Shown here in pieces: positions 51,012 through 54,920 of a stretch of DNA of 64,000 nt. The stretch is taken from assembly GCF_002368415.1 (NCBI RefSeq), contig NZ_AP018290.1:1243470-1307469 (forward strand), in the 5' to 3' direction. Each line of letters starts with the position of its first letter. Positions within the stretch are counted from its first letter, which is position 1. This stretch comes from Calothrix sp. NIES-4105 (GTDB taxonomy: Bacteria; Cyanobacteriota; Cyanobacteriia; Cyanobacteriales; Nostocaceae). Position numbers and translations under genes: made by a program. The notes below the pieces were generated by a model, which worked only from the letters and a program-made list of their open reading frames with translations, ran no database searches and was not told the origin of the DNA.

Positions 51012-51305
51012 TTAAGCTCCATCCAAAGGTTTATCTACAATGGCGCCCTCGCTAAAAGCAGTTTCCTTGCCTCGTTTAGCAAGAATTTCACTCCATATTT
51101 GGTCTGAAGTAACACCTCTCTTATCAGCAAGGTATTTTACCCGTTGTTTTATATCGGGCACCCGTTCATTGAGCTTTTCGGATAATAAGCTTTGTGCTTG
51201 CTGAACTCTGGTGCGACTACTCAATTCCGCATCAATATCAAGCAAGTCATCATAGAATTCCCCTAAAGCAGGAATTTGTAAGCGCTCTTCTCGCCGCTGA
51301 TTCAT
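51012..51305 (-). CDS. Small paralogous protein A flanking DAHP synthase
   Basis: 97 residues: MNQRREERLQIPALGEFYDD, then coiled helices and a KYLADKRGVTSDQIWSEILA segment. A close paralog (about 60 percent identical by eye) is encoded at 52735-53037. Both are on the minus strand on either side of the aroF-type gene. The middle segment (YLADKRGVT) looks DNA- or RNA-binding-like, but I cannot name a family. Confidence 0.75.
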   Translation of the reverse strand: MNQRREERLQIPALGEFYDDLLDIDAELSSRTRVQQAQSLLSEKLNERVPDIKQRVKYLADKRGVTSDQIWSEILAKRGKETAFSEGAIVDKPLDGA

Positions 51306-52734: not shown

Positions 52735-53037
52735 TTATCCTTCTTCTCCAGGTTTATACTGAATGGCACCTTCAGTAAAAGCAGTAACTTTACCTCGCTT
52801 TGCAAGAATTTCACCCCACATTTGATTAAAGGTAATACCCCTCTTATCGGCGAGGTATTGAACTCTATCTTTAATACCTAACATCCGCTCCTGAAGTCTT
52901 TCGGATATTAAACTTTGCGCTTGCTGAACCTTAGTGCGGTTACTGAGTTCAGCATCAATATCTAGTAAATCATCGTAATATTCCCCCAAAGCAGGAATTT
53001 GTAGCCGTTCTAAACGGTCTTCCCGTCGTTGATTCAT
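52735..53037 (-). CDS. Small paralogous protein B flanking DAHP synthase
   Basis: 100 residues from the ATG at 53037; four upstream residues from 53049 are dispensable. Shares with the gene at 51012 the start NQRRED, the segment IPALGEYYDDLLDIDAELSN, QQAQSLISERL and the C-terminal ILAKRGKVTAFTEGAI. Three added residues (LER) near the N-terminus distinguish it. Strong conservation of both copies suggests selection. Confidence 0.75.
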   Translation of the reverse strand: MNQRREDRLERLQIPALGEYYDDLLDIDAELSNRTKVQQAQSLISERLQERMLGIKDRVQYLADKRGITFNQMWGEILAKRGKVTAFTEGAIQYKPGEEG

Positions 53038-53190
53038 CGATGTACACAATGGTGACTTTTTTACTATTCAAGCAAAGAACGGGATAAGTCTAGATAGTAA
53101 TATTTTTTACATCAATATTGATTCAACTAAATTTCATCAAAAATTCATTAATGACTCGTTTGTGATTATTATAGAAGATGTAGCCAAACG

Positions 53191-53268
53191 ACTGCATTAA
53201 GGTGTCCAGCCAAGCAATGCAGTCGCGAGGCTACCCTTTCCACGTTATGAAAAGGTTGTTTATATATC
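53191..53268 (+). promoter_or_regulatory. Predicted pseudoknot leader RNA (copy 1)
   Basis: ACTGCATT (53191-53198) pairs with AATGCAGT (53216-53223), an 8-bp helix; the enclosed loop contains AGCC (53208-53211), complementary to GGCT (53229-53232) just outside, giving an H-type pseudoknot. Next, CCTTT/AAAGG (53235-53239, 53251-53255) encloses CACGTTAT, hiding a purine-rich ribosome site. The start codon at 53269 follows. The same geometry precedes 54462. Not matched to a named family by me. Confidence 0.62.
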
Positions 53269-53511
53269 ATGACCAAATTTGAATTGATTTACAACTGTGT
53301 CCATAAGTACGACGAGCAGACGATTTGTAACAGTAACATTATCCGTCGTGCCGTTAGTTCAAACCACGCCGAAAGTTTAATCGAAGGCGCCAGTATGAAC
53401 GCAGTAGTCGCAGTTGCCTCACCTCTAGCTTGCCCCATTCAATTATCGAGCGAAATTAGCGCTTATGTAGAGAAAATGGGCTATTACCTGGGAGGAGGCG
53501 CCGACACTTAA
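53269..53511 (+). CDS. Small protein downstream of the leader RNA
   Basis: 80 residues. Starts MTKFELIYNCVHKYDEQTIC; the C-terminal part (AYVEKMGYYLGGGADT) is glycine-ended. No signal peptide or membrane helix. Family not recognised. Codon use and frame are uninterrupted, and a hairpin follows the stop, so it is likely a real gene under control of the upstream RNA structure. Confidence 0.62.
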   Translation: MTKFELIYNCVHKYDEQTICNSNIIRRAVSSNHAESLIEGASMNAVVAVASPLACPIQLSSEISAYVEKMGYYLGGGADT

Positions 53512-53562
53512 CAAATCTTAACCATTCAGTTACATAAAAACAATTTTCCCATCACGTAAACA

Positions 53563-53613
53563 CGCCCTTAGTTACAGCACTAAGATATTCATCTTATACT
53601 GTAGCCAAGGGCG
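53563..53613. terminator. Bidirectional hairpin between two convergent genes
   Basis: Stem CGCCCTT / AAGGGCG plus adjacent AAAC/GTTT, with a 37-nt loop. It lies after the gene ending at 53511 and overlaps the last codons of the convergent gene. Confidence 0.55.
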
Positions 53614-54115
53614 GTTTCTTTAGCTGTAAATTAGTTATATTTTCCGGTGCATTTGGATGTTTCTTTAGCAGATTCGCAATCACTGAATTTTGAGCTATAT
53701 TTACGCGTTTAGCAATCTCTTCGATAATAGACGGCGCCGTAGTCTTTGATTCAACAAGATGTAAAATAATATCACGATTTTCAGTTCTAAGGGCAATATT
53801 TTGTAATTCCAATGACAGTAATTTATTATACCTAAAAATTGAATTATGAGATTGAATAAACCAATTAGTTACAAGTAAAGGGTCTTCAAGTATAAGCAAA
53901 GGCATAACAGGGTTGTCAAAGACAATATCAGCCATATTCGGCTCTTTTGTAAATAAATATTCAAGTAACTCCAGAGAAGTATTCGGATTACTACCAATAG
54001 CTTCGATTATCTGACGTTTATAACCACGAACCTTGTGTTCATCATAAATTTGATAAAGTTCATCAGGATGAGTGCAAGGGTCAGTTGCCTTTTCAAGAAT
54101 ATCTTCAATATACAT
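53594..54115 (-). CDS. Hypothetical alpha-helical repeat protein (LRV-like)
   Basis: 173 residues from the ATG at 54115 (TTG at 54130 less likely). Contains short repeats of the form NPxxSLELLEYL, NPVMPLLILEDP and HPNAPENITNL, like leucine-rich-repeat-variant (LRV) proteins of cyanobacteria. Likely a protein-interaction scaffold. Function unknown. Confidence 0.6.
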   Translation of the reverse strand: MYIEDILEKATDPCTHPDELYQIYDEHKVRGYKRQIIEAIGSNPNTSLELLEYLFTKEPNMADIVFDNPVMPLLILEDPLLVTNWFIQSHNSIFRYNKLLSLELQNIALRTENRDIILHLVESKTTAPSIIEEIAKRVNIAQNSVIANLLKKHPNAPENITNLQLKKPPLATV

Positions 54116-54391
54116 AAATATATAATTCAAAACTACTACTTTGCTGCTAACATTAAAATAACCAATATTATCAAAATATCAAAAATACAAAAAAATATCT
54201 ATAACTAAACATGTAAGGTAAATTACTATCAAACATGCATGTAGGGGCAGGAACGAGACTCAACATTTTCAGTTATAGAGTCAAGTCTTCCAAAGCTTGA
54301 GAATTATAATCAAAATATAATCATAATTAAGATAAATTTGCTTTACATACGATTCAAAAGCGATTAAGATTTAAATTATTAAGTCAAGCGC

Positions 54392-54461
54392 CTGCATTAA
54401 GGTGTCCAGCCAAGTAAATGTGGTCGTAGGCTAACAACCTTCACGTTATATAGGAAAAATC
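54392..54461 (+). promoter_or_regulatory. Predicted pseudoknot leader RNA (copy 2)
   Basis: CTGCATT (54392-54398) pairs with AATGTGG (54417-54423) using two G-U pairs in place of the Watson-Crick pairs of copy 1; AGCC (54408-54411) pairs with GGCT (54429-54432), same spacing as copy 1. CACGTTAT sits in the loop of a short CCT/AGG hairpin just before the ATG at 54462. The loop sequence AAGGTGTCCAGCCAAG is identical in both copies. Confidence 0.62.
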
Positions 54462-54920
54462 ATGGCAAACGCGCAACCAGAAGACATAAATGTCAAATTA
54501 GAAGACATGGATGAGCGTCTAGAGCAGTTAGGAGACGAAATAGACTTAATACGTACTATCCAGAATGCCAACCGCAGAGAGACACGAGCAAACTCTCAAA
54601 CAATAGCGCGAGTCGAGCGAACTGTATCAGAACTAGTTGATATCGCGCGCTTACACCAGCAAGCATTAAAAATTAATCAACAAAATATAGTAAGAGTGGA
54701 GGGAACTGTATCAGAGCTTGTTGATATCGCGCGTTTACACCAGCAAGCATTAGTCAGTAATCAACAAAATACAGCACGAGTGGAGGGAACTGTATCAGAG
54801 CTTGTTGATATCGCGCGTTTACACCAGCAAGCATTAAAACTTAATCAACAAAACATAGACCGTATATGGCAATATCTCGAAAGTCAAATTAGAACAAACG
54901 GCAATGGTAACGCGGCATAA
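54462..54920 (+). CDS. Coiled-coil protein with three 28-residue repeats
   Basis: 152 residues. Three tandem copies of a 28-residue unit, core RVEGTVSELVDIARLHQQAL, at about residues 50-133, i.e. four heptads each; in DNA this is an 84-bp tandem repeat. The repeats differ at a few positions only (KIN, VSN, KLN), consistent with recent expansion. The protein should form a long parallel coiled coil. No catalytic motif. Preceded by the same leader RNA as 53269. Confidence 0.75.
   Translation: MANAQPEDINVKLEDMDERLEQLGDEIDLIRTIQNANRRETRANSQTIARVERTVSELVDIARLHQQALKINQQNIVRVEGTVSELVDIARLHQQALVSNQQNTARVEGTVSELVDIARLHQQALKLNQQNIDRIWQYLESQIRTNGNGNAA

Follow-up and report, generated by a model that had tools for sequence, protein, structure and literature searches.

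Two small genes lying about 1.2 kb apart in the cyanobacterium Calothrix sp. NIES-4105 are preceded by leaders with a common sequence, which raises the question of what has been conserved before them and what it might do for the two genes. We addressed this question in a 64,000-nucleotide stretch of DNA (the window, a term used here for the whole of that stretch), which is part of a 12-Mb genome. The sequence AAGGTGTCCAGCCAAG, hereafter called the core, occurs exactly in both leaders, as the initial annotation had reported, on the same strand and 1200 nt apart (Table 1). In a search of the whole 12-Mb genome, the second leader (leader B) aligned with the first (leader A) at 80% across 68 nt (E = 5.8e-7). 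The sequence search revealed no third copy, and a covariance-model search of the genome at E ≤ 10 likewise returned two. Each leader is ~90 nt long and ends at a start codon, that of an 80-aa protein (gene A) or of a 152-aa protein (gene B). The leader is common to the two genes and their proteins are dissimilar, as had been claimed: tblastn gave no match between the 80-aa protein and the 152-aa gene at E 1e-3. By comparison of the copies described below, the element is a predicted hairpin with an invariant tip, a near-fixed geometry of 42-43 nt and a position before start codons. We favour, at slightly better than even confidence, the reading that it is a genus-specific 5′-terminal cis-regulatory hairpin common to two neighbouring genes.

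Table 1. Features of the two leaders and their genes, in positions of the window
Feature	Position	Strand	Remark
Possible promoter of leader A, TTCATT - 17 nt - TATTAT	53144-53172	+	read from the sequence, aligned with the B promoter
Leader A	about 53180-53268 (predicted)	+	runs into the 80-aa ORF starting at 53269
Leader A hairpin	53180-53234	+	MFE fold, z -4; pair changes in relatives
Leader A P1a, GTAGCC/GGCTAC	53180-53185 / 53229-53234	+	lower stem
Leader A P1b, CGACTGCATT/AATGCAGTCG	53189-53198 / 53216-53225	+	upper stem
Invariant core AAGGTGTCCAGCCAAG, leader A	53199-53214	+	tip folded GGU(GUCCA)GCC; identical in 11/11 leaders
Small hairpin CCTTT/AAAGG round CACGTT (53241-53246)	53235-53255	+	pairs the SD-like AGG 53253-53255
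Gene A, 80-aa protein	53269-53511 (with stop)	+	ORF
Predicted promoter of leader B, TTTACA - 17 nt - TAAGAT	54342-54370	+	consensus scan
Leader B	about 54377-54461 (predicted)	+	runs into the 152-aa ORF starting at 54462
Leader B hairpin	54382-54432	+	MFE of the isolated 60 nt, tip probability about 0.58
Leader B P1a, AGTC/GGCT	54382-54385 / 54429-54432	+	lower stem
Leader B P1b, CGCCTGCATT/AATGTGGTCG	54389-54398 / 54417-54426	+	upper stem
Invariant core, second copy, leader B	54399-54414	+	exact match
CACGTT block (54442-54447) and SD-like AGG (54452-54454), leader B	54442-54454	+	AGG pairing weak
Gene B, 152-aa coiled-coil-like protein, three 84-nt repeats	54462-54920 (with stop)	+	ORF

Occurrence of the leaders and their core

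Among the seven members of the Calothrix/Dulcicalothrix genus, leader A is present in six and leader B in five, giving 11 leaders (6 A and 5 B). Apart from the window's own genome, four genomes carry the locus with both leaders, a fifth has leader A alone, and the sixth (6.5 Mb) has neither. The five relatives are Dulcicalothrix desertica PCC 7102 and Calothrix sp. PCC 7716, HK-06, PCC 7103 and FI2-JRJ7. PCC 7103 (L068) retains leader A with gene A and lacks leader B; its match to gene B starts at residue 98 of 152, so that the C-terminal part is represented and the N-terminal part is absent. In one relative, a palindrome-like repeat, AGAAACCTGGTTTCT, occurs twice in the gap that precedes leader B (L066:6298-6379); it was not noticed in the leader region of the window when that sequence was read through.

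The core is identical in all 11 leaders of the final list, which was gathered by the exact core, and the flanks diverge. A search allowing two substitutions, BLAST and a covariance model all returned the identical 11 leaders in the genus. In an alignment of promoter plus leader, 66 of the 180 columns are invariant across the 11 leaders, and the longest invariant run, of 19 columns, was reached by none of 200,000 column permutations. The A copies are mutually close, with 158 of 180 columns invariant as against 103 of 180 in the B copies. Because the A copies come from close relatives, the weight is carried by the B copies and by the contrast between A and B. Within one genome, A and B are equal at 20 or 21 of the 21 positions covering the core and the inner stem arm, and at 6 to 12 of the 20 positions (compared ungapped) just upstream of this segment.

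An upstream reading frame passing through the core was considered and rejected, the frame having no start codon when the A copies were checked by eye. A start codon followed directly by a stop (ATGTAG) is seen at 53178-53183, at the predicted 5′ end of leader A; it is present in all six A leaders and one B leader, and absent in the other four B copies.

A covariance-model search of cyanobacterial genomes, which the initial annotation had named as a check, did reveal further copies, confined to one genus. In 217 genomes of the family, model R2 gave 11 matches in six genomes, all of the genus, and none in the 210 outside it under strict filters; in the seven genus genomes at E ≤ 10, with 150 candidates scored, it returned the same 11 places. 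Model R1, applied to 388 genomes of the order at E ≤ 0.1, matched eight genomes, of which three are genus members; the other five were inspected and had no core. These large scans, run with strict filters, scored few candidates per genome (11 for R1 in the order, 19 for R2 in the family), and weak relatives may be lost in them. The exact pattern was found only in its own genome among 195 order genomes. A DNA search of the 217 family genomes at E ≤ 1 gave some match in 74 genomes, the best one outside the genus (E 0.002) lying inside a 613-codon open frame.

When up to three mismatches in the core were allowed, it occurred at 21 places outside the genus in the 217 family genomes (7 for a reversed-pattern control) and at seven places in 291 genomes of the class (control, 3). 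We opened and folded 12 of these 28 places; the 16 unopened ones repeat an opened 23-mer (14 as L165/L170 and 2 as L187). Ten of the 12 are inside frames that run for 80 codons or more from stop to stop, and none has a two-part stem round the core. The nearest likenesses among them are L192, which has a short five-pair stem plus tip (-4.9 kcal/mol) outside stop-to-stop frames of at least 80 codons, and L186, which has the outer stem and tip, no inner stem, and a position inside a 471-codon frame. An exact 18-mer was found in one viral contig and in nine genome-contig stretches (five from Calothrix/Dulcicalothrix and four others), the five stretches outside the genus being inspected as sequence, without folding. 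Plasmids gave no leader match, and phages gave just a 21-nt match at E 0.2.

The impression that no named family applies was confirmed by Rfam searches of the window and of both leaders. With Rfam 15, the whole window yielded only a tRNA at the gathering score; at E ≤ 10, leader A gave six sub-threshold rows (five miRNA and one sRNA) and leader B gave none. The titles and abstract openings of the best literature matches contained no description of such an element.

The predicted hairpin, the proposed pseudoknot and the ribosome site

The 11 elements were folded one by one as isolated 60-nt sequences, with the CACGTT region left out and no alignment used. All of them gave the same overall MFE shape, one long hairpin, which consists in order of the lower stem P1a, an internal loop, the upper stem P1b, an internal loop and the tip GGU(GUCCA)GCC. 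The tip-pair probability was at least 0.94 in ten of the 11 elements and about 0.58 in the window's B. A likeness of the hairpin's internal loop to a GNRA receptor was considered and dropped after a literature search.

For the analysis of covariation, we used an 11-row alignment fitted to an A-type model, which contains 11 of the 19 model matches and leaves out six opposite-strand matches over leader A and two weak ones (E 0.33 and 0.8). In this alignment, 93% of the cells of the whole hairpin are paired and nine of its 21 pairs are changed on both sides, and slid controls reached at most 43% of cells paired and two such pair changes. P1a is 98% paired, with both-side changes in all six pairs, and P1b has both-side changes in two of its ten pairs. 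RNAalifold, run on the same alignment, recovers P1a, eight of the ten P1b pairs and the tip. Further pair types were no more numerous than in shuffles (255 of 500 for the whole hairpin and 293 of 500 for P1a). When the flanks were shuffled round the fixed core, none of 2000 shuffles reached any A copy on both measures jointly, and the five B copies were reached by 51, 11, 3, 5 and 89 of 2000.

Compensatory changes in further copies, for which the initial annotation had asked, are thus found in the genus relatives, in a shared helix made up of P1a and P1b; since most of the changes are differences between the A copies and the B copies, they represent few independent events. The outer helix kept through G-U replacements was found just as described. 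These results support the view that one structured leader RNA stands in two copies before unrelated small genes.

The fold first proposed was a different one, in which a loop AGCC pairs with an outside GGCT. This pairing would make the leader an H-type, riboswitch-like pseudoknot that switches access to the ribosome site. AGCC and GGCT are indeed equally spaced in both window copies, and both are present in all six A copies. In four of the five B copies, however, GGCT is replaced by ACTA, which is unable to pair with the invariant AGCC. As a result, four of ten distinct alignment rows have three of the four pairs broken, with no compensating change; 70% of the cells are paired, and none of the four pairs is changed on both sides. 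Moreover, the same GGCT is the 3′ strand of the co-varying P1a, which reads GTAGCC/GGCTAC in A and TAGT/ACTA in most B copies. We rejected the pseudoknot for the loss of its pairing in the relatives and, as the GGCT strand is accounted for by P1a, put the long hairpin in its place. The missing Rfam match and the restriction of the element to one genus also speak against the pseudoknot, which we regard as highly improbable and as the least likely of the readings weighed here.

Between the hairpin and the start codon, CACGTT is invariant in the 11 leaders. It begins 42 nt from the start of the core in ten of them and 43 nt in the window's B, so that the distances once given as identical over about 42 nt are so in ten of the 11 genus leaders and differ by one in the window's own second copy. 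The hairpin that was thought to cover the ribosome site, with CACGTT in its loop, fared well in leader A, being predicted in all six A copies with the AGG paired at 0.94-0.98. It fared less well in the B leaders, where it is weakly predicted with the AGG paired at 0.23-0.52, and RNAalifold on the 11-leader alignment did not recover it. The AGG lies 13 nt from the start codon in the window's A and 7 nt in its B. Folding of the full B leaders favours, in three of the five copies (the window's B among them), a competing structure in which the CACGTT region is paired to the 3′ arm of P1b; the inner P1b has probabilities of 0.04, 0.11 and 0.20 in these three copies, which are the only ones in which competing folds win. 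The stability of the full B leaders is not unusual (z -1.07 to +0.51).

An invariant tip close to a predicted SD hairpin, as in leader A, would suit a ligand-binding riboswitch in which the tip forms the pocket and the ribosome-site hairpin provides the output. We consider such a riboswitch distinctly unlikely, given that the element is a single small hairpin, that the supposed output is weak in leader B, that the downstream genes belong to no recognised metabolic family and that no spread beyond one genus was seen.

Promoters, downstream genes and the origin of the second leader

All 11 leaders stand just before a start codon, on the strand of the gene, and their promoters are assigned by consensus, that of A being weak. 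Promoter-like sites are common in the scanned stretch (11, versus 5.6 in shuffles), and the B promoter is among those that the scan listed. All five B copies have TTTAC, as TTTACA in four and TTTACG in one, and the 17-nt spacing; the second box reads TAATAT, TAGTAT or TAAGAT. The promoter of leader A, whose -35 box is weak, is a possible assignment that is absent from the consensus-scan list. Transcription is predicted to start close to the foot of the hairpin. The A and B promoter regions resemble each other and include an ATGAnTCrT-like motif in the spacer; the search pattern for this motif was drawn from the leader copies, so that its two matches are no independent test.

The likeness of the promoter regions and the hairpin predicted at the 5′ end would both be expected of a passive mRNA-stabilising 5′ stem-loop, or of a duplicated promoter-leader without regulation. 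Neither of these needs the tip to have stayed identical in 11 of 11 leaders despite change in stem and promoter, and we hold this explanation to be unlikely. The inverted repeat, the 42-43 nt between the invariant blocks and the motif common to the promoter spacers might point instead to an element acting as DNA, either an operator or a recombination site. Such an element, which we judge very unlikely, is hard to reconcile with stems that vary by G-U and paired changes, with the same orientation and the same place just before the start codon in 11 of 11 cases, with a number of only two copies per genome, or with the scan of neighbouring proteins, which gave no mobile-element family.

Homologs of gene A are present in nine of the 217 family genomes, six of the genus and three of another genus. 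PCC 7716 has one extra gene A paralog, without a leader, and the homolog at the one other-genus locus that was opened matches the end of a 224-aa ORF. For the 80-aa protein, searches of Pfam, PHROGs, PADLOC and PDB sequences gave no match, NCBIfam gave a single meaningless row at E 0.04, and plasmids gave no match. Homologs of gene B are more widespread (53 of the 217 family genomes); at the 25 loci opened beyond the genus, the sequence upstream of the gene is a different one and contains no leader. As gene B homologs outside the genus are without it, the leader came to the gene. The distribution of the homologs, compared with that of the leader, indicates that the leader goes with the locus and not with either protein family. 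Most likely, a promoter-plus-leader module was copied from A to B; the copying, as one module, would have taken place in the ancestor of the strains.

Some features of the genes in this region were observed in passing. Gene B has three in-frame 84-nt repeats (28-aa units) at 54603-54858, and is shorter in four relatives that have an intact start, showing that the copy number varies. The 178-aa ORF between the two leader genes (53594-54130, minus strand) is 83-84% alike in five relatives and has a weak leucine-rich-repeat-variant match below the cut-off. Two genes that neighbour each other on the minus strand (51012-51305 and 52735-53049) encode 97- and 104-aa proteins that are 76% alike over 96 aa; both are matched in five relatives and have no Pfam family above the cut-off.

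Possible action and relation to known elements

If the leader is a cis-regulatory hairpin, as we favour, transcription would start at its foot and its tip would be the recognition site of a putative trans-acting factor. This factor may be a small RNA or else a protein that binds RNA, for which the 80-aa product itself is a candidate. Once bound, it would affect either the stability of the mRNA or the access of ribosomes to the nearby AGG/start region, and both genes would respond together. The 80-aa protein may thus be under autogenous control. A small RNA perfectly complementary to the central 11-mer of the core, GGTGTCCAGCC, appears unlikely, because no exact match to this 11-mer beyond the leaders, on either strand, is common to the seven genus genomes. 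A more specific version of the cis-regulatory reading is a genus-private RNA operator, in which a dedicated factor, perhaps the 80-aa protein, would read the tip and control its own gene together with a neighbour that captured the module; we put this forward tentatively, as a rather doubtful proposal.

Hairpin RNA operators of autoregulated genes are familiar from phage coat-protein and ribosomal-protein leaders. The present element resembles them in having a stem of free sequence and an invariant loop beside the start codon, and in that more than one target is possible; it differs in that its 80-aa protein has no Pfam or credible NCBIfam match. The ompA mRNA has a stabilising stem-loop at its 5′ terminus, and the hairpin described here is, by prediction, likewise 5′-terminal on its transcript. 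The difference is that the tip here does not vary in sequence, a constancy for which a passive stabiliser would have no need.

Nearest in concept are the cyanobacterial Downstream-peptide RNAs (RF01704), which according to PMC2864571 precede small ORFs of unknown family in cyanobacteria as 5′ leaders, a setting like that of the present leader. By the Rfam scan our element is not a member: neither RF01704 nor glnA RNA (RF01739), both leader motifs of cyanobacteria, appeared in the scans of the window and leaders. In contrast to these two, the element was found in one genus only and its proposed pseudoknot is unsupported.

The locus thus probably contains a small RNA control element of two genes that lies outside the RNA-family library searched. 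It offers a comparative case of a leader RNA without an Rfam family, with a frozen tip and a co-varying stem, in a single genus. With so narrow a range, the case has a limited reach. The genes that probably served as donor and recipient are still neighbours, which makes the locus a tractable example of how a two-gene leader regulon could arise by the copying of a promoter and leader. If the genus-private operator is real, it would represent a small post-transcriptional regulon early in its evolution.
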